Assembly: GCA_024178355.1 (NCBI GenBank)
Contig: JAMZNZ010000005.1
Span: 1-64,000, forward strand
DNA: 64,000 bases
DNA from: Maricaulaceae bacterium EIL42A08
GTDB taxonomy: Bacteria; Pseudomonadota; Alphaproteobacteria; Caulobacterales; Maricaulaceae
Direction of reading: 5' to 3'
A model generated the notes under the pieces. It was given only the letters and a program-made list of their open reading frames with translations, made no database searches and was not told the DNA's origin. How positions within the stretch are numbered: the first letter of the stretch is position 1; each line of letters starts with the position of its first letter. Below, piece after piece: positions 49,442 to 60,184 of this stretch. The position numbers and the translations under genes are program-made.

Positions 49442-51273
49442 AGCAGCTGCGCCGTCTCCTTCGGCAGGTCAAAGTTATAACGACCCGCCAGCAGACACCG
49501 CCCGCGCCTGATGAAGCGGCACCGGCGCGCGCAACCCGGCGCATCCATCTGTCAGCGCAGGGGGCTGGAGCTCAGGATCGCCAGCGTCGTCGGCTCCGCG
49601 TTATCGGGCTGGTCTTTGCCTTTGGTTTTCTGATCACGGCGGGCCGCGCTGTGGAAGTCGCCCTGGTTGGTCATGCGCCTGAAGAGGCCCGAGTGGTCAG
49701 TGTGCCGGAGGTTCGTCGCGCCATGCTGGTGGATCGCGACGGTGAAATCCTGGCTGCGACCATGGATTTTCACACCGTCTTTGCCGACCCCTACTATGTC
49801 TGGGACCCGGTGGAGGTGGCTGACCAGCTAATCACCGTGCTGCCCGATTTGAACCGCGAGCGTCTGCTGCGTCGCCTTCAGTCTGATACCCGATACGCCC
49901 CGATTGCCGAGGGCGTGTCGCCGCGCACCCGCCAGGCCTTGCACATGCTGGGCCTGCCGGGGGTCTTCTTCAGGTCAGAGCCGGGGCGCGTCTATCCCAA
50001 ACAGACCGCAGCCGCCCATGTGATCGGCTATGTGGGCGATGACAATCAGGGTCTGGCTGGCGCTGAGCTTGCCTTTGAGGCTGAGCTCGCTGAAGGCGCA
50101 GCGCCGGTTGCGCTGTCCATCGACCTCACTGCCCAGCATCGGGTCGAAAGCATTCTGCGTCGCCGCATGGCGGAGTTCCAGGCCGCCGGAGCCGCCGCTG
50201 TCCTGATGCGGGTGGGCACCGGTGAGATCATCGCCATGGCGTCCCTGCCTGATTACGATCCGAACCTCTGGCGCGATGCGCGCCGCCTGCGGTCTGATGC
50301 CCAGCATCCCCATTTCAATCTGGCGAGCTCCGGCGCGCCGGAGCTTGGCTCGGTGTTCAAGCCGCTGGCGTTGGCCGCAGGTCTGGAAGCCGATCTTGTC
50401 TCGCTGGATGATGTGTTTGATGCCTCGCGCCCTGTGCGCATTGGCGGTCACACCATCAACGATTATCGCGGTGAGAACCGGCCTCTGACGGCGCGCGAAG
50501 TCATTCTCTACTCGTCGAATATCGGTTCGGCGCGGATGAGTGATGTGATCACCACCGATGTGCTGACCGATTTTTATCGCTCGCTGCGCCTGTTTGAGGC
50601 CGCTCCTATCGAGCTTCCAGAGTCGGCACCGCCGCAGCTGCCTGATCGCTGGGGTCGCATCCAGACCATGACCGCGTCCTATGGCCATGGCTTCGGGGTT
50701 AGCCCGCTGGCGCTGACGGCCGCTTATGGCGCGCTGGCCAATGGCGGGGTCTATGTGCCGCCCACCATTCGCCCCGTCGCGCCAGGTGAGCAGGTGGCCG
50801 GCGAGCCGGTCATGCGCCCTCATGTGGCGGCGCAAGTGCTTGGTGTGCTTCGCGAAAACGTGGTGCGCTCGCAAACCGGATCGGCTGATATTCCGGGTCT
50901 CGTCGTTGCGGGCAAAACGGGGACGGCGGAGAGCGCCTATAATGGCGGCTATTCCCAGGACGACCGGTTTAACACCTTTGTGGCGGTATTCCCGTTCGAT
51001 GACCCGCAATACGTGCTGACCGTCAGCCTTGATCGTCCGCGCCCGACCGCCGACACCCATGGCTACGCAACAGCAGGGTGGACCGCGATGCCAACGGCGG
51101 GTGAAATCATGGCCGACCTGGCCGGAGTGCTGAACCTGGAGCGCCGGGAGGTGGACCCCGAAGCGCGCCTGTCGACGGTGGCCGCCCTGTTTGCGCCGCG
51201 CGAGCGCGCGACTGCGACCGTGCCCGCCGAAGAGCCTGCGCCCCTGCCTGTCGAGGAAGGGGCTCAGCCATGA
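49438..51273 (+). CDS. ftsI: Peptidoglycan D,D-transpeptidase FtsI (PBP3)
   Basis: 611 aa. A membrane helix (about 53-72) follows an unusually long, basic cytosolic N-terminus of about 50 residues. The PBP dimer domain covers about 85-215. The transpeptidase has S305-x-x-K308 (GSVFK), S359-S-N361 and K493-T-G. It crosslinks septal peptidoglycan with FtsW. The GTG start overlaps ftsL (GTGA), as expected for translational coupling. Confidence 0.96.
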   Translation: MKQLRRLLRQVKVITTRQQTPPAPDEAAPARATRRIHLSAQGAGAQDRQRRRLRVIGLVFAFGFLITAGRAVEVALVGHAPEEARVVSVPEVRRAMLVDRDGEILAATMDFHTVFADPYYVWDPVEVADQLITVLPDLNRERLLRRLQSDTRYAPIAEGVSPRTRQALHMLGLPGVFFRSEPGRVYPKQTAAAHVIGYVGDDNQGLAGAELAFEAELAEGAAPVALSIDLTAQHRVESILRRRMAEFQAAGAAAVLMRVGTGEIIAMASLPDYDPNLWRDARRLRSDAQHPHFNLASSGAPELGSVFKPLALAAGLEADLVSLDDVFDASRPVRIGGHTINDYRGENRPLTAREVILYSSNIGSARMSDVITTDVLTDFYRSLRLFEAAPIELPESAPPQLPDRWGRIQTMTASYGHGFGVSPLALTAAYGALANGGVYVPPTIRPVAPGEQVAGEPVMRPHVAAQVLGVLRENVVRSQTGSADIPGLVVAGKTGTAESAYNGGYSQDDRFNTFVAVFPFDDPQYVLTVSLDRPRPTADTHGYATAGWTAMPTAGEIMADLAGVLNLERREVDPEARLSTVAALFAPRERATATVPAEEPAPLPVEEGAQP

Positions 51274-52718
51274 CGAAATCGCTTGCCGATCTTTTGCCGC
51301 AAGGGGTGGCCGTGCCGGATGGTGCCGCCAACCTGTCTGTGTCTGGTCTTGCCCTTGATAGCCGTAAGGTCGCTCCCGGCGATGTGTTTGCTGCGCTGCC
51401 CGGGGTTCACACTGACGGGCGCAAATTCATTCCCATGGCGGTTGAAAAAGGCGCGGTCGCGATCATCGCACCCACCGGCACTGAAGCGCCGGTTCCGGTG
51501 ATCGAAAGCGATGATCCGTCGGGCGTTCTGGCGGCGATGGCGGCGCGTTTCTACCCGCGCCAGCCCGCAACGATTGCCGCGGTCACCGGTACCAATGGCA
51601 AAAGCTCCACCGTTGAGTTTTTGCGCCAAATCTGGGCGACGGCGGGACTTGAAGCAGCCTGCCTTGGAACGCTGGGTGTCACGCGCGCCAGTGGTCGAAC
51701 CGATGTGGGCTACACGACGCCGGACGCGATCGCGCTGCACCGCTCGCTGGATGCGCTGGCCGGTGAGGGCGTGACGCATCTGGCCATGGAGGCCAGCAGC
51801 CACGGGCTGAAGCAAAAGCGCATGGACGGGGCGAAGGTGACGGCGGCGGCCTTTACCAACCTCACCCAGGATCACCTCGATTATCATCCTGACTTTGCTG
51901 ATTATTTCGGCTCCAAGATGCGGCTGTTTTCCAGTCTCGCGGCTGAGGGTGCACCCGCGGTCATCCATATGGATTCAGACTGGAGCGACAAGGTGGCCGA
52001 TGCCTGCCGTGCGGCGGGACTGGACGTCATCTCGGTGGGCTGGCGCGGGCGCGACCTGACGGTCACTGAAATCACACCCCACCCGGCAAGCCAGCATTTG
52101 CGCTTTACCTGGAAGGGCAGGGAGCATGCGATCTCGCTGCCCCTGATCGGTGAGTTTCAAAGCGCCAATGCCGTGGTCGCCGCCGGGCTGGCCATTACCA
52201 CCGGGGTTGAGCCGGAGGCCGCTTTTGCTGGGCTGGAAAAGTTGACCGGTGTGGCCGGCCGCCTTCAGGCGGTGGGACAGACGAAGGATGGCGCGCCGAT
52301 CCTTCTCGATTACGCCCACACGCCTGATGGTCTGGACAAGCTCTTGCGGGCTGCGCGTCCGCACACCCAGGGGCGCATCATCGTTGTGTTCGGTGCGGGC
52401 GGGGATCGCGATCCCACAAAGCGGGCGAAGATGGGCGCGGTTGCCGCAAAGCTCGCTGACACTGTCATCGTCACCGACGACAACCCGCGCTCAGAAGACC
52501 CGGCTCTGATCCGCAAGGCGGTGCTGGAGGGCGTGCCGGGGGCCGCCGAAATTGGTGATCGTGAGGCTGCCATCCGCGCCGGGATTGGCGAGCTTGAGGC
52601 AGGCGACGTGCTGCTAATTGCCGGGAAGGGCCATGAAACCGGCCAGATTGTCGGCGATCGGGTGATCCCCTTTGACGAGGCCGAGATTGTGACGCGCATC
52701 CTGAAGGAGGGCGCATGA
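51270..52718 (+). CDS. murE: UDP-MurNAc-L-Ala-D-Glu:meso-diaminopimelate ligase MurE
   Basis: 482 aa. The Mur-ligase P-loop GTNGKSS is at 107-113. The DNPR motif at 404-407 identifies the meso-diaminopimelate-adding type, so this organism has DAP peptidoglycan. ATMEASSHGL-type and HTPDGLDKLL blocks are present. Its ATG overlaps ftsI and its stop overlaps murF, both by 4 bases. Confidence 0.96.
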   Translation: MTKSLADLLPQGVAVPDGAANLSVSGLALDSRKVAPGDVFAALPGVHTDGRKFIPMAVEKGAVAIIAPTGTEAPVPVIESDDPSGVLAAMAARFYPRQPATIAAVTGTNGKSSTVEFLRQIWATAGLEAACLGTLGVTRASGRTDVGYTTPDAIALHRSLDALAGEGVTHLAMEASSHGLKQKRMDGAKVTAAAFTNLTQDHLDYHPDFADYFGSKMRLFSSLAAEGAPAVIHMDSDWSDKVADACRAAGLDVISVGWRGRDLTVTEITPHPASQHLRFTWKGREHAISLPLIGEFQSANAVVAAGLAITTGVEPEAAFAGLEKLTGVAGRLQAVGQTKDGAPILLDYAHTPDGLDKLLRAARPHTQGRIIVVFGAGGDRDPTKRAKMGAVAAKLADTVIVTDDNPRSEDPALIRKAVLEGVPGAAEIGDREAAIRAGIGELEAGDVLLIAGKGHETGQIVGDRVIPFDEAEIVTRILKEGA

Positions 52719-54127
52719 GCAGCGCACCGCTCTGGACTGCCGCTGAGGCTGCGCGCGCCACGCAGGGTCAGCTGACCGACGGCGGCTGGACCGCGGCCGG
52801 CGTGTCCATCGACACCCGCACCATCCAGCCTGGCGATCTGTTCGTGGCGCTGACCGACCAGCGTGACGGCCATGACTTTGCGCAGGCTGCGCTGGATGCC
52901 GGTGCCGCGGCGGTGCTGGTGTCAAAACCGGAAGCCGCAAGCGGCCCCCGGCTTGTGGTGCGTGATGTCCTGAGCGCGCTGCGTGATCTGGGCGCTGCGG
53001 CGCGCGAGCGGTCTGATGCAGTGCGCGTAGGCGTTACCGGCTCGGTGGGTAAGACCAGCGTGAAAGAGGCTCTCGCGGCGGTGTTTCGCGCTGCAGGTCG
53101 CGCGCACTGGAGCGAGAAAAGCTATAACAATCATTGGGGTGTGCCGCTGACCCTGTCTCGCATGCCGCGCGAGACCGAGCGTGGTGTGTTTGAAATGGGA
53201 ATGAACCATGCCGGTGAGATCGCAGATCTGGTTTCCATGGTCCGCCCCCATGTGGCGCTGATCACCAAGATCGCGCCCGCCCATCTTGAGAATCTGGGCT
53301 CCATGGAAGCCATCGCCGACGCGAAGGCCGAGATCTTCACCGCGCTTGCCGATGATGGCGTGGCGATCATTCCGGCTGACGACGAGTTCGCACCGCGCCT
53401 GTCTGAGGCTGTGCGTCGGTCGAAGGCAGGCTTCCTGATCGACTTTGGCCACGCGCCGACCGCTGCGGTCCGCGTGCTGCGCTATGAAGACGGCGCTGAG
53501 GGCGGTGTGGGGCAGATGGACGTCATGGGCCGTTTGCTGGACTTCCGACTTAAGCTCACCGGCGCTCACCAGGCGGTCAATGCAGCAGGCGTGGTCGCCG
53601 CGGCGCTGGCAGCTGGCGTGGAGCCGGAGCTTGCCATTGACGCGCTGTCCCAGCTGGAACCGGCAGCAGGGCGTGGTTCGGTGTTCACCCGTGATCTGGG
53701 CGATGGCCGCAGCGTCACTGTCATCGACGACAGCTATAATGCCAACCCCGCCAGCATGCGCGCGGCGTTCTCTGCGCTGGCAGCTCGACAGCCGGGTAAG
53801 GGTGGCCGCCGCGTTGCGATCATTGGTGAGATGCTGGAGCTGGGGCCGCAATCTGAGGCCATGCATGCCGATCTTGCCCAACCGCTAACTGATGCTGGCG
53901 CTGAGCTGGTCTTTGGCGTGGGTGCCAATGCGCGCGCGCTGTTAGAGGCGCTTCCTGATCATGTTGAACGCCAGGGCTTTGCCAGTGCTGCAGACGCTGC
54001 TGACACAATACAGCGCCAGCTTGTCGATGGAGACCTTGTGTTAATCAAAGGGTCCAATGCTTCGAAGGTTCACACTCTTGCCGCATCGCTTCGGCAGGGT
54101 CGCCACGCTGCGACAACAAAGGCCTGA
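52715..54127 (+). CDS. murF: UDP-MurNAc-tripeptide:D-Ala-D-Ala ligase MurF
   Basis: 470 aa. The ATP loop GVTGSVGKTS lies at 106-115, NNHWGVPLTL and FEMGMNHAGEI are the next conserved blocks, and the C-terminal DDSYNANPASMRAAF is the MurF signature. It adds D-Ala-D-Ala to complete the UDP-MurNAc-pentapeptide. It starts within the murE stop (ATGA) and ends 6 bases before mraY. Confidence 0.95.
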   Translation: MSSAPLWTAAEAARATQGQLTDGGWTAAGVSIDTRTIQPGDLFVALTDQRDGHDFAQAALDAGAAAVLVSKPEAASGPRLVVRDVLSALRDLGAAARERSDAVRVGVTGSVGKTSVKEALAAVFRAAGRAHWSEKSYNNHWGVPLTLSRMPRETERGVFEMGMNHAGEIADLVSMVRPHVALITKIAPAHLENLGSMEAIADAKAEIFTALADDGVAIIPADDEFAPRLSEAVRRSKAGFLIDFGHAPTAAVRVLRYEDGAEGGVGQMDVMGRLLDFRLKLTGAHQAVNAAGVVAAALAAGVEPELAIDALSQLEPAAGRGSVFTRDLGDGRSVTVIDDSYNANPASMRAAFSALAARQPGKGGRRVAIIGEMLELGPQSEAMHADLAQPLTDAGAELVFGVGANARALLEALPDHVERQGFASAADAADTIQRQLVDGDLVLIKGSNASKVHTLAASLRQGRHAATTKA

Positions 54128-54133
54128 TCATCG

Positions 54134-55234
54134 ATGTTTTACGAATTCCTCGCCCCTTTCTCTGAGCAGTTCCAGCTGTTCAATGTTTTCAACTACCTGA
54201 CCTTCCGTACCGGCGGCGCGCTGATGACGGCATTCATCATTGCGCTGATCATTGGCGAGCCCTTTATCAAATGGCTCAAATCCAAGGGCAGCCAGCCGAT
54301 CCGCGATGATGGTCCTGAAAGTCATGTGGTGACCAAGGCCGGAACCCCGACCATGGGCGGTTTCATCATCCTGGCGGCGGTTGTGGCGTCGGTGATCGTG
54401 TGGGGTGATCTGGGCAATCAGTATCTGTGGGTCGTGATGTTCGTCACGGCCGGTTTTGGCGGCATCGGCTTCATCGATGACTGGCGCAAGGTTACCGAAA
54501 AGTCCCACAAGGGCCTGTCTGGCAAGGGCAAGCTGGTGCTTCAGTTTGCTGTCGCGCTGATTGCGGTGGTGTGGATGGTCCAGCTTCTGTCCAATGCGCC
54601 CGATGCGCCGGACGGCTTTGCGACTTCAGTCGCGGTACCCTTCTTTAAAGACCTCTTCATCCCGCTCAGCTTTGGCTTCTTCCTGTTTGGGATGGTGGTG
54701 ATTGTGGGCGCGTCCAACGCGGTCAATCTCACCGATGGGCTCGATGGCCTCGCCATTGTGCCGGTGATGATCGCGTCAGGTGCCTTCGGTCTGATCGCCT
54801 ACTTTGTCGGTAATGCGGTGTATTCAGACTATCTGTTCTTGAACTTCACGCCGGGCACCGGTGAACTGGCCGTCATCTGTGGGGCGATCATCGGGGCTGG
54901 CCTTGGCTTTTTGTGGTTCAACGCGCCGCCCGCCATGGTCTTCATGGGCGATACCGGTTCGCTCAGCCTCGGCGGTGCAATCGGCGCAATTGCCGTGGCG
55001 GTCAAGCACGAGATCGTTCTGGTCATCATCGGCGGCCTGTTCGTACTTGAGGCCCTGTCGGTCATGATCCAGGTGGCGAGCTTCAAACTCACGGGCAAGC
55101 GCGTCTTCGCGATGGCTCCCATCCACCACCATTTTGAAAAGCAAGGCTGGGCTGAACCCACCATCGTGATCCGCTTCTGGATCATTGCCTTTGTGCTCGC
55201 CCTCATCGGCCTGTCGACGCTGAAATTGCGCTAG
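54134..55234 (+). CDS. mraY: Phospho-MurNAc-pentapeptide translocase MraY
   Basis: A 366-aa inner-membrane enzyme with about ten helices, which transfers phospho-MurNAc-pentapeptide to undecaprenyl phosphate to make lipid I. The catalytic aspartate motifs FIDDWRKV (with an Asp pair), [10 protein letters not shown] and [12 protein letters not shown] are present, as is the His-rich APIHHHFE loop. Length and motif order are typical. Confidence 0.96.
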
Positions 55235-55242
55235 GAGCTGCC

Positions 55243-56541
55243 ATGGTCCCGGTCCGCGCCCATGCCGGACAACGTGTTTGCGTCCTTCGCCTGACCGAGG
55301 CTGGCTTCGGCGCAGCGCAGGCGCTCGCCAGCGGGGGCGCAAGCGTGACCGTATGGGACGAGGATGAGGCGCGCTGTGACGCAGCAAGCGCGCTCGGCCT
55401 CAAGGTTGAGGATCCGTCGACCCGCGACTGGTCAGACCTGGCGGCTTTGGTGGTTGGCGATAAGGCCATGCTGGACGAGGACGTCTCGATCCGCGCCGTG
55501 GACATGGCCCATGCGCTCGACATTCCGGTTATCGATGCCACCAGCCTGATCGCCAGAGCGCTTGTGAGCGAATACGACACCACTGTTTGCGTTGTCGCGG
55601 GCACGCAGGCGGATGCCGTCGCGCGTATTGGTTCGGCGCTGCTGGACGCCATTGGTGCGGACGTCGTTGGTCCAGACTTGTCTGCGGCTCCGCGTCGCCC
55701 TGGGCCGGGCAGTGTTGTTCTGCTGACGCTTGAGGATGCGGACGTCGCGATCACGCCGGATCTGCTCGTGGTGACCTCCGGCGAGGCGCAGGTCGAGTGC
55801 CAGCGTATTATCGCGGAAATGACGGGGCCTGTGGTTCTGAACGCCGATGACCCGGCCGCTGCGCGCCTTGCGACCCGGGCCCCCTTGCGCTCCATCCTCG
55901 CATCAGGGCGCCAGTCGCTGGGCGGCGGCGTGTTTGTATGTGCCGGTGCAGTCTTTGACGGCATTGACGGACCGCCCAGTCGGTTGACCCCCGTGCCTGC
56001 TGGACAGGGCGTGGCGGTGACACCGCCCGGATTGCTGGCCATGGCCCATGGCCTGGTGCGCGCGTGCGAATATTCGCTGGATCGATCCTGCGAGGCGCTT
56101 GAAGTTTTCGAGGGCGTCGCTGGTTGGGGTAAAGCTGTCGCGCGCTTTGGTCCGGTGCAGCTGCTTGATTATTCGGATACAAAGGATTTGCGCTCTGTAC
56201 TTCTGGCGCTGCGAGCTCCCGGCCCAGTCATATGGGTCGCGGGCCCTGCGCTTGAAAAGGGAAGTGCCGCTCTGATCGAAGCGGCCGGGCGCACACCGAC
56301 CCGCATCTTCATGACCGGGGATCGCGCCAAAGCGGCCAAGGGATTGTCGCGCCTCTGCCCGACGCAGATCGTCACTGACACAGGCACACTGACGGCGCGC
56401 GCGCTGTTTGCCGCGCTGAAGGCGGGCCCCGACGCGCGTATTGTCATTGCGCCGGGTTGCGAGGGCGGGCCTAAACCGTCCGATCTTGCCGATGCCCTTG
56501 ATACGTTGATCCAGCAGGTCCGACAGGGAGAGGCCGCATGA
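55243..56541 (+). CDS. Degenerate MurD homologue in the murD position of the dcw cluster
   Basis: 432 aa, intact frame, AGGAG ribosome-binding site. Position (mraY-X-ftsW) and shape (N-terminal Rossmann half, central domain with VVLNADDP, C-terminal VIWVAGPALEKG and MTGDRAKA) identify it as a MurD relative. MurD ligates D-Glu to UDP-MurNAc-L-Ala. The hallmarks are lost: the N-terminal GLGxSG is RLTEAG (15-21), the ATP loop GTNGKST is GTQADAV (120-126), the HR before the C-terminal domain is GW, DSKATN is YSDTKD (310-315), and the C-terminal SPACASFD region is APGCEGGP. ATP-dependent ligation by this chain looks impossible. Real MurD activity must come from elsewhere, or this chain has a structural role. 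Confidence 0.78.
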   Translation: MVPVRAHAGQRVCVLRLTEAGFGAAQALASGGASVTVWDEDEARCDAASALGLKVEDPSTRDWSDLAALVVGDKAMLDEDVSIRAVDMAHALDIPVIDATSLIARALVSEYDTTVCVVAGTQADAVARIGSALLDAIGADVVGPDLSAAPRRPGPGSVVLLTLEDADVAITPDLLVVTSGEAQVECQRIIAEMTGPVVLNADDPAAARLATRAPLRSILASGRQSLGGGVFVCAGAVFDGIDGPPSRLTPVPAGQGVAVTPPGLLAMAHGLVRACEYSLDRSCEALEVFEGVAGWGKAVARFGPVQLLDYSDTKDLRSVLLALRAPGPVIWVAGPALEKGSAALIEAAGRTPTRIFMTGDRAKAAKGLSRLCPTQIVTDTGTLTARALFAALKAGPDARIVIAPGCEGGPKPSDLADALDTLIQQVRQGEAA

Positions 56542-57668
56542 CCCGGTCCAGTCGTCAGATATCGCTATGGAGCGGTCTTGATCGGTCCATCCTTGCGACC
56601 ATTCTCTTCTTGATGATGGTGGGCATTGTGCTGGCGTTTGCCGCGAGCCCTGCGGTGTCCAGTGCCGATGATCCCTGGTTTTTCCTGAAGCGGCAGGTCG
56701 CGTTTGCTACCGCTGGCCTTGCCGTGCTGGCAATAACATCTGCGCTGAACATTACCGGCGTGCGTCGCATGTCGGGGCTGGCGCTGTTGTTCAGCCTGAT
56801 CATGCTGGCGCTCGTCCTGCTGGTCGGGGCAGAGCTGAATGGCGCACAGCGCTGGATCCTGATTGGTGGCTTCTCACTTCAGCCCAGTGAAATCCTGAAA
56901 CCCGCCTTCGTCGTCTTTGTCGCCTGGCTGTTCAGTGAAGAAGACAAGGGCGCTCCGGTGCCCGGTCGTATTGCGGCTTTCATCATTTTCACGCTGGCGG
57001 CAGGGTTGCTGCTACTTCAGCCGGACTTTGGCCAGACGGTTCTGATCGCGCTGACCTTCGGGGCGATGATGTGGGCGGGCGGCCTGTCGTGGACCTACAC
57101 CGCCATTCTGGCTGGGCTCGGCGCAGCCGGTGCCACAGGCGCGTATTTCACACTGCCCCACGTGCGGGCGCGCATCGAAAGCTTCCTGTCCGATGGTGAT
57201 GCCGGGGGTGGTCGCACCCAGACCGACATCGCGATCGATGCGATTGCCAATGGCGGCTTCTGGGGGACCGGACCGGGCGAGGGACAGATCAAGCATATCC
57301 TGCCCATGGCCAATACCGACTATGTGTTCTCCGTCGCGGCGGAGGAGTTTGGCCTCATCGTGTCGCTGACGATAATCGGGCTTTATGGCCTGTTGTTTGC
57401 GCGCGCCTGGATGCTGGCGCTGCGTCTGGAGGACCCGTTCTCCCAGCTTGCGGCTTCAGGTCTGGCGCTGCTGTTTGGCCTGCAGGCGCTGGTCAATATC
57501 GCGGTGAATCTGGATATTGCGCCGCCCACCGGTATGACTTTGCCCTTCATCTCCTATGGCGGCTCGTCCATGCTGGCGCTGTGCTTCTCAGCCGGGCTTT
57601 TGCTGGCGCTGACCCGCAAGCGACCAGGGGCCTACGCCCCACCATCCAGCCGAAAGGCACTGGCATGA
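56538..57668 (+). CDS. ftsW: Lipid II polymerase FtsW (SEDS family)
   Basis: 376 aa, about ten membrane helices. SEDS signature elements: GGFSLQPSEILKPAFVVF, the long extracytoplasmic loop, GTGPGEGQIKHILPMANTDYVFSVAAEEFG and the terminal GMTLPFISYGGSSMLA. It polymerises septal glycan in complex with FtsI. The ATG overlaps the preceding murD-like gene by 4 bases. Confidence 0.95.
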   Translation: MTRSSRQISLWSGLDRSILATILFLMMVGIVLAFAASPAVSSADDPWFFLKRQVAFATAGLAVLAITSALNITGVRRMSGLALLFSLIMLALVLLVGAELNGAQRWILIGGFSLQPSEILKPAFVVFVAWLFSEEDKGAPVPGRIAAFIIFTLAAGLLLLQPDFGQTVLIALTFGAMMWAGGLSWTYTAILAGLGAAGATGAYFTLPHVRARIESFLSDGDAGGGRTQTDIAIDAIANGGFWGTGPGEGQIKHILPMANTDYVFSVAAEEFGLIVSLTIIGLYGLLFARAWMLALRLEDPFSQLAASGLALLFGLQALVNIAVNLDIAPPTGMTLPFISYGGSSMLALCFSAGLLLALTRKRPGAYAPPSSRKALA

Positions 57669-58774: not shown

Positions 58775-60184
58775 ATGCCACCGATCGATCTAGCCAACTC
58801 CGTTGCCCCTGTTCACTTCGTCGGTATCGGCGGCATCGGGATGAGCGGCATTGCCGAGGTGATGCTCAATCTGGGCTATGCGGTCACCGGCTCTGACATC
58901 AAGGACAGCGCCAATACCGAGCGGCTGCGCAAGAAGGGCGCAACCATCCATATCGGCCATACGGCTGACAATGTGGACGGGGCTGGTGCGCTGGTGGTGT
59001 CAAGCGCGGTCAAGCCAGACAATCCAGAACTGGTGGCGGCGCGCGCGACCCGTGTGCCGGTAGTGCGCCGGGCTGAAATGCTGGCTGAGCTAATGCGTTT
59101 AAAACAGGCGGTGGCCGTTGCTGGTACCCATGGCAAGACCACCACGACCAGCCTGGTGGCGACCTTGATGGATGCGGCCGGGTTCGACCCCACCGTGATC
59201 AACGGCGGCATTATCTCGGCCTACGGTTCCAACGCCAAGATGGGCGAGGGCGACTGGATGGTCGTGGAGGCCGATGAAAGCGACGGCTCGTTTTTAAAGC
59301 TGCGCGGATCGGTTGGTATCATTACCAATATCGACCCGGAGCACATGGAGCATTACGGCAGTTTTGATGCCCTGCGCGCTGCGTTTGAACAATTTGTCGA
59401 AAACCTGCCCTTCTATGGCTTCGCCGTGCTGTGCATCGATCATCCTGAAGTCCAGGCGCTTGCAGCACGCATCGAGGATCGCCGGGTCATCACCTATGGC
59501 CAGTCGCCCCAGGCCGATGTGCGAATTGGCGACCTCACCATGGATAGTTCGGGCGCGAACTTTTCGCTGACCTTCCAGGCGCGCGGCAGCGATCCGAAGA
59601 CCTGGGCCAACCTTCAGCTTCCCATGATGGGCGAGCATAATGTGCTCAACGCGGCCGGTTCCATCGCTGTCGTGGAAGCGCTGGGGGGCAACGAGGCTGA
59701 GGTGCGCGCGGGCCTTGCCGGTTTCTCCGGTGTGAAGCGTCGTTTTACCCATGTGGGCGATGCGCTGGGGGCCAGTATCATTGATGATTACGGCCACCAC
59801 CCGGTGGAGATCGCCGCCGTGCTCAAAGCCGCGCGCCAGCGAGCAGGCAGCGGCAAGGTCCACGCCGTGGTCCAGCCGCATCGCTACTCACGCCTGCATG
59901 ATCTGTTCGAGGATTTCTGCACCTGCTTCAATGACGCCGATACCGTGCTGGTCGCGCCGGTCTTTACTGCCGGTGAGGACCCGATCGAGGGCGCAGACTC
60001 AGACCACCTCGCTCAGGGCCTGCAGCGCCACGGCCACCGCGATGTCGGGGTGACGACGCGCGAGGCACTTGCTTCGGATATGAAGAAAAAGTTGGGTGAA
60101 GGTGATCTGGTGGTGTGTCTGGGTGCCGGCGACATCACCGCCTGGGCGGCTGCGCTTCCAAAAGAACTGGAGGCCTTGGAGTGA
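58775..60184 (+). CDS. murC: UDP-MurNAc:L-alanine ligase MurC
   Basis: 469 aa. The N-terminal UDP-binding [14 protein letters not shown] and the P-loop GTHGKTTTT (117-125) are intact, as are [21 protein letters not shown] and [10 protein letters not shown] with its His pair. It adds the first amino acid, L-Ala, to UDP-MurNAc. MurC is the nearest relative of MurD and the intact motifs here show what the degenerate gene at 55243 has lost. A repeat element separates it from murB. Confidence 0.96.

Follow-up and report, generated by a model that had tools for sequence, protein, structure and literature searches.

A full-length MurD homologue lacking catalytic residues persists in the dcw operon of a Maricaulaceae bacterium with a predicted MurD2/MurL bypass

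In silico analysis of a 64,000-nucleotide stretch of Maricaulaceae bacterium EIL42A08 (contig JAMZNZ010000005.1, positions 1 to 64,000; the window) showed that the murD position of its division and cell wall (dcw) operon, between mraY and ftsW, is occupied by an intact frame (55243-56541) encoding a MurD homologue that has lost the catalytic residues of this enzyme. Takeover of the corresponding step by an unlinked MurD2-type ligase and a homologue of MurL is well supported, and it is because of this takeover that the dcw MurD could die: since the bypass needs no free D-glutamate (D-Glu), the absence of a D-Glu pool would have left the old enzyme without a substrate. We consider it likely that the bypass removed the need for the dcw MurD and that the protein survived as a pseudoenzyme whose function, probably a structural one, does not involve catalysis. 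Loss of the active site preceded the radiation of the genus, and the three-domain chain stayed in its operon. It is putatively translated to this day, and the likeliest place for such a non-catalytic function is the cytoplasmic Mur/MraY-MurG/FtsW assembly. Translation of the dead frame and, above all, its structural role are what we infer from the data given below.

The frame starts with ATG, comprises 432 codons on the forward strand with no internal stops, and has AGGAG immediately 5' of the start codon. The intact frame, the ribosome-binding site and the overlap with ftsW reported in the initial annotation were all present, the overlap being 4 bp, and so were the erased MurD signatures (RLTEAG, GTQADAV and YSDTKD) and the P-loops retained by the neighboring MurC (GTHGKT), MurE (GTNGKS) and MurF (GSVGKT). 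No GK[ST] P-loop occurs anywhere in the predicted chain, no match to the Pfam Mur_ligase domain was obtained at E<=1, and the NCBIfam murD profile TIGR01087 gave 21.1 bits (E 1.4e-4), which does not reach its cut-off of 211.95. Judged by its sequence, the 55243-56541 chain is no longer a candidate catalyst.

Of the 15 genus genomes (Oceanicaulis/Alkalicaulis, going by named matches), 11 carry the same frame, full-length and stop-free, at 35-65% identity; these 11 sequences are referred to below as relics. The initial annotation had allowed for degeneration in this strain only, with frameshifts in its relatives, which is not the case, and a strain-specific pseudogene is ruled out by the same full-length frame in these genomes. 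A sequencing or assembly artefact was likewise rejected as having a negligible probability: the 11 genomes agree, three of them are single-contig (G157, G158 and G161), and this state is also seen in the isolate Alkalicaulis satelles G-192.

A P-loop is present in none of the 11 relics. With catalytic columns numbered as in E. coli MurD, where K198 is the carbamylated lysine, Lys, His or Asn was found at the K198, H183, N268 and K348 columns in 0/11 relics and Lys at the K319 column in one (G156), the latter depending on the alignment. For comparison, a G[TS]NGKS P-loop was seen in all 35 canonical murDs checked, which were taken from the 134 MurL-negative genomes of a 150-genome sample of the order. 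Across 140 columns with a conservation of 90% or more among canonical MurDs, the genus relics kept 22% of the conserved cells in active-site segments vs. 45% elsewhere, so catalytic columns have been lost preferentially. Outside the active-site segments, 60% were kept in the N-terminal, 36% in the central and 44% in the C-terminal domain, and the alignment revealed an RDW(S/G)-L motif in the N-terminal domain of all 11 relics. The best-kept part is therefore the N-terminal domain, in contrast to Mur ligases generally, for which the consulted sections of PMC11915815 give the central domain as the most conserved.

The lost step appears to be supplied from elsewhere in the chromosome. The EIL42A08 genome (2.99 Mb, 6 contigs, 99.99% complete) encodes a single MurD over the TIGR01087 cut-off (C1:1028793-1030070; 279.8 bits), whose open reading frame (ORF) shares 4 bp with a convergent ORF for a 447-aa MurL homologue. 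The latter matches nearly the whole NF041275 profile (E 1.8e-84, 283.8 bits; curated cut-off 700, a Xanthomonadales-based value reached by no genome in our order, genus and class samples). According to the sections of PMC8788868 consulted here, MurD2 adds L-Glu and MurL is an ATP-dependent one-way epimerase; bacteria with this pair lack D-Glu genes, and Parvularcula is listed among the alphaproteobacteria concerned. A P-loop-bearing MurD-type ligase beside a MurL homologue is what was found in EIL42A08, and the P-loop (TGTKGKS) is present in the MurD2 of 14/14 genus genomes. In the MurD2 of Xanthomonas oryzae, Glu197 and Arg358 are given as the specificity residues, and Glu197 matters for L-Glu specificity (PMC8788868, same sections); at the Arg358 position (E. 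coli Lys348), the genus MurD2 has Arg in 14/14 genomes, and at the E. coli D182 position Asp in 8/14, including EIL42A08, and Glu in 6/14. The MurL and MurD2 genes are convergent neighbors in eight of the 14 genomes; in the remaining six they are >40 kb apart or on different contigs. L-Glu specificity of the unlinked MurD and epimerase activity of the MurL homologue are predictions.

Of the genes for making free D-Glu, the racemase was searched for in EIL42A08 itself and in the 150-genome order sample, and a DAT-type aminotransferase in 30 chosen genomes. No glutamate racemase (MurI, TIGR00067) match was obtained in EIL42A08 at E<=10 (the control was positive in 11/14), and the best match to the DAT-type aminotransferase profile (152 bits; cut-off 277.45) is probably a branched-chain aminotransferase; by these two profiles, the genome contains no genes for free D-Glu. 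MurI matches occurred in 101 of the 150 order genomes (70 over the cut-off), and the cut-off was passed by none of the 16 MurL-bearing ones, where G064 and G079 gave weak partial matches of 27-28 bits. Among 30 chosen genomes, DAT-type matches of 236-277 bits, none over 277.45, were found in 15, all MurL-negative and 14 of them with no racemase match (G128 has both), and the 14 MurL-bearing genomes reached at most 153.5 bits. MurI, the DAT-type aminotransferase and MurL, three routes to the D-Glu residue, are nearly mutually exclusive across these 150 and 30 genomes.

The initial annotation regarded MurD as essential and asked for either an unlinked MurD or a substitute enzyme. The genome-wide search for a second MurD with an intact P-loop recovered exactly one, beside the MurL homologue and in a genome in which no MurI was found; an essential MurD has not been lost, and a pathway already known accounts for the apparent paradox.

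MurL was detected in 15/15 genus genomes and MurD over the cut-off in 14/15, the exception (G153) being a 1.7-Mb fragmented assembly. In the four genomes without the relic (G150, G152, G153 and G160), ftsW lies 9-53 bp past the mraY stop, i.e., murD has been cleanly deleted. They group together as a single clade (SH-aLRT 99) in the MurL tree, a quick tree with long-branch warnings. At least one clade can therefore do without the dead MurD.

In the order sample, MurL was found in 16/150 genomes, and some MurD match at E<=1e-40 in 149/150. The 28 MurL-bearing order genomes (16 of this sample and the 15 of the genus, three being common to both) comprise 22 with an open, apparently dead dcw murD, five with a deletion, and G119, described below. 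A class sample of 384 further genomes yielded MurL in 16, one of them partial (G246:C3:135838-136326, from a different family of that class; 103 bits over profile positions 223-392). The top MurD match of three MurL-negative genomes (G068:C78, G081:C2 and G118:C12) is either short or split in two, and a frameshift or assembly error may be responsible.

A comparable situation was observed in a second family, f5, which presumably corresponds to Parvularculaceae. MurL is present in 13 sampled f5 genomes, 11 of which keep a full-length dcw murD. Equivalents of K319 and K348 are lost in 11/11 of these MurDs, those of H183, N268 and H301 in 10/11 each, and that of K198 in 9/11; the P-loop GK is kept in 11/11, so these apparently dead proteins may still bind nucleotide. 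The least decayed one, that of G134, carries E157K, K198M, D182V, K319S and K348Q, substitutions which suggest that it is inactive. The f5 MurDs keep 44% of the canonical-conserved cells in active-site segments and 59% elsewhere, and the dN/dS (the ratio of nonsynonymous to synonymous substitution rates) of the dead murDs is 0.21-0.44 in nine of the ten pairs listed, the tenth being saturated. The dcw murD is deleted in G069, and in G119 (G119:C79:1-6000) neither murD nor ftsW occurs within 6 kb after mraY, where the operon may be broken. MurL and MurD2 of f5 are adjacent and on the same strand in 12/12 genomes with both matches.

The history of the dead proteins was traced with a 57-row tree. 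A MurD tree had been proposed in the initial annotation as a test of whether the degenerate type is conserved, and it is: the 11 genus relics form one clade (100/100) inside the canonical MurDs of their own family (Maricaulaceae-type), grouping with four of these (98/82), so that the genus had a single ancestral loss. Since the relics share the erased P-loop, the death of the enzyme is older than the genus. The dead f5 MurDs occupy two positions in the tree, G134 with canonical f5 MurDs (95/91) and the other ten in a clade of their own (100/100). With the genus relics in one clade and the f5 proteins in two places, at least three separate MurD deaths took place, each in a MurL-bearing lineage.

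Structure prediction, also suggested in the initial annotation, returned a full-length Mur-ligase fold for the 55243-56541 product. AlphaFold2 was run with an alignment of 10 rows, two of them canonical MurDs (pLDDT 85, pTM 0.81), and with relics only (pLDDT 79, pTM 0.75), and both models match full-length Mur ligases in a structure search. The best E-value belonged to MurD 3lk7 for the former model and to MurC 7bva for the latter, whose top TM-score among the matches listed (0.71) was with MurD 1e0d. A search of a viral fold library gave nothing useful. Taken with its dcw position and its nesting among MurDs, the predicted fold places the chain in the MurD family by descent.

Could the chain have acquired a new active site and still catalyze something? 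The Mur-ligase fold is kept, six relic-specific changes are nearly fixed, and the f5 proteins retain the P-loop lysine in 11/11 cases. The genus relics have neither a P-loop nor equivalents of H183, K198, K319 and K348, the positions that they conserve are clustered at a distance from the former active site, mostly in the N-terminal domain, and no new catalytic-type motif was seen; we regard such a re-invented enzyme as very improbable.

Selection on the dead frame was assessed by the NG86 method for all 55 pairs of the 11 relics, with bootstraps for seven chosen pairs. With GC-rich codons, NG86 underestimates dS and so inflates dN/dS. Values of 0.23-0.28 were obtained among G154, G155, G157 and G158, 0.45 for G133-G151, and 0.13 for EIL42A08 (G000) against G159, where dS is saturated at 2.2; the upper bootstrap bounds of the seven pairs are 0.19-0.57. 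Neutral simulations in which only stops were avoided gave 0.67-1.29 at dS 0.38-0.6 and 0.64-1.44 at dS 0.9. All 15 relic pairs with dS<0.8 (0.23-0.54) lie under the neutral 0.64-1.44, and canonical murD shows 0.05-0.22 in the ten closest pairs listed. The dead MurD is thus under relaxed yet, at short range, clear constraint. The initial annotation had taken the intact frame as a sign of selection for translation; an intact frame alone is no proof of this, and it is the dN/dS of the close pairs that shows constraint.

Several results weigh against the retention of the dead MurD for a structural role, or against the bypass on which this reading depends. Over all 55 pairs, the relic dN/dS has a median of 0.51 and a maximum of 0.88, with 48/55 under 0.67; 18/55 pairs, the deepest among them, are at 0.60 or above and overlap the neutral range; and the relic value exceeds those of murD2, ftsW and mraY in 55/55 pairs. 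The frame has been deleted in 4/15 genus genomes. At 284 bits, the MurL homologue falls far short of the 700-bit NCBIfam equivalog cut-off, and the MurD2 of EIL42A08 keeps Asp at D182, where that of X. oryzae has Glu. Our confidence in the reading as a whole, still good, is no higher because the constraint over all pairs is weaker than in the pairs first chosen.

The same data bear on the alternative that the protein is idle, its frame remaining open as a translational spacer for ribosome run-through into ftsW or because decay is incomplete. Deletion of the gene without replacement in one clade, a constraint below that of all neighbors, with 0.60-0.88 in the deepest pairs, and the 4-bp ftsW overlap shared by 11/11 relics would fit a spacer or remnant. 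A spacer predicts a dN/dS near 1 (0.64-1.44 in the simulations), and 0.23-0.54 was observed in the 15 close pairs, with an upper bootstrap bound of 0.57 in the seven tested; relics down to 35% identity are all full-length and open; and in the deletion clade, with ftsW 9-53 bp past mraY, coupling through murD is not needed. Retention as a spacer only is disfavored in close pairs, the deepest pairs being compatible with it, and overall we consider this explanation unlikely.

The dead MurD might also serve specifically as a partner for MurD2 or MurL, e.g., tethering them to the other Mur ligases of the operon. Among the genomes examined, the dead-MurD state occurs only in MurL-bearing ones, in two families and with separate origins. 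Five MurL-bearing genomes have no dead MurD, which argues that the bypass runs without it, and such a partnership seems to us less probable still than a spacer.

For the retained pseudoenzyme, a structural place in a Mur complex is the likeliest role because of precedents in the consulted sections of PMC6420597: MurG binds MurD, MurE and MurF in Thermotoga, and Mur ligases co-localize with MurG in Caulobacter. The scaffold or regulator put forward in the initial annotation is compatible with the unlinked MurD, and is in part supported by the retention of the frame in 11/15 genomes and by constraint in close pairs after the death of the enzyme, and disfavored by its deletion in 4/15 and by a constraint weaker than that of every neighbor.

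The features of the locus are given in Table 1. A scan of positions 54900-56900 gave no match to a sigma-70-like promoter, which is a weak test for this organism.

Table 1. Features of the dcw region of the window around the dead MurD homologue
Feature	Coordinates	Strand	Basis
Dead MurD homologue (432 aa), dcw murD position	55243..56541	+	intact ORF; 21.1 bits to TIGR01087; no P-loop; AlphaFold2 models match Mur ligases
N-terminal domain of the dead MurD (residues 1-105), best-kept part, RDW(S/G)-L motif	55243..55557	+	conserved-column count and alignment
Erased P-loop, GTQADAV for GTNGKST	55600..55620	+	sequence
Erased NDSKATN signature, now DYSDTKD	56165..56188	+	sequence
mraY, 8 bp upstream of the dead frame	54134..55234	+	gene order
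ftsW, start overlapping the dead-frame stop by 4 bp	56538..57668	+	gene order
murE, P-loop intact	51270..52718	+	profile matches, motif GTNGKS
murF, P-loop intact	52715..54127	+	profile matches, motif GSVGKT
murC, P-loop intact	58775..60184	+	profile matches, motif GTHGKT

Compared with canonical MurD (TIGR01087; E. coli 1UAG/1E0D), the dead protein shares the locus, gene order, three-domain fold and descent from Maricaulaceae-type MurDs, and differs in lacking the P-loop and the catalytic and metal-site residues and in scoring 21 bits to the profile. The bypass resembles MurD2/MurL of X. oryzae (XOO_1320/XOO_1319) in the MurD-type ligase beside a MurL homologue, the absence of a racemase match and Arg at the Lys348 position; here it is predicted from sequence, its genes are convergent, or apart in 6/14 genomes, and a dead dcw MurD exists alongside it. 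The dead dcw MurDs of f5 are, like the genus relics, full-length, from MurL-bearing genomes and lacking several catalytic equivalents, and differ in their P-loop GK, their separate origins and, for G134, only partial decay. The consulted sections of PMC8788868 contain no discussion of the fate of the old murD in MurD2/MurL bacteria, and our literature search of open-licence PMC papers found none on a dead dcw MurD in MurL-bearing bacteria.

Repurposing of a Mur-ligase chain has a parallel in PAP11/MurE-like, a subunit of the plastid RNA polymerase. Both involve a Mur-ligase chain, there in a non-cell-wall complex; the ligase, the organelle and the partners are different, and the likeness is at the level of the Mur fold only.

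The bypass pathway itself is known; what is new is the likely retention of a pseudoenzyme, with origins in parallel. The MurD2/MurL bypass is hereby extended, as a prediction, to the Oceanicaulis/Alkalicaulis genus, with the warning that a "murD" named by its operon position can be dead and the real activity unlinked. Mur ligases are drug targets regarded purely as enzymes, and the lineages described here amount to a natural experiment: catalysis was no longer needed, some lineages kept the chain and others deleted it, and whether MurD has a structural role can thus be tested directly. More tentatively, and as an idea that we find plausible without yet favoring it, MurD may independently, at least three times, have become a full-length pseudoenzyme kept in dcw for a second, non-catalytic job of organizing the cytoplasmic cell-wall machinery, the erased-P-loop and P-loop-keeping types being two separate solutions. 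If this is true, canonical MurD everywhere would carry a hidden structural function, exposed by the bypass lineages.
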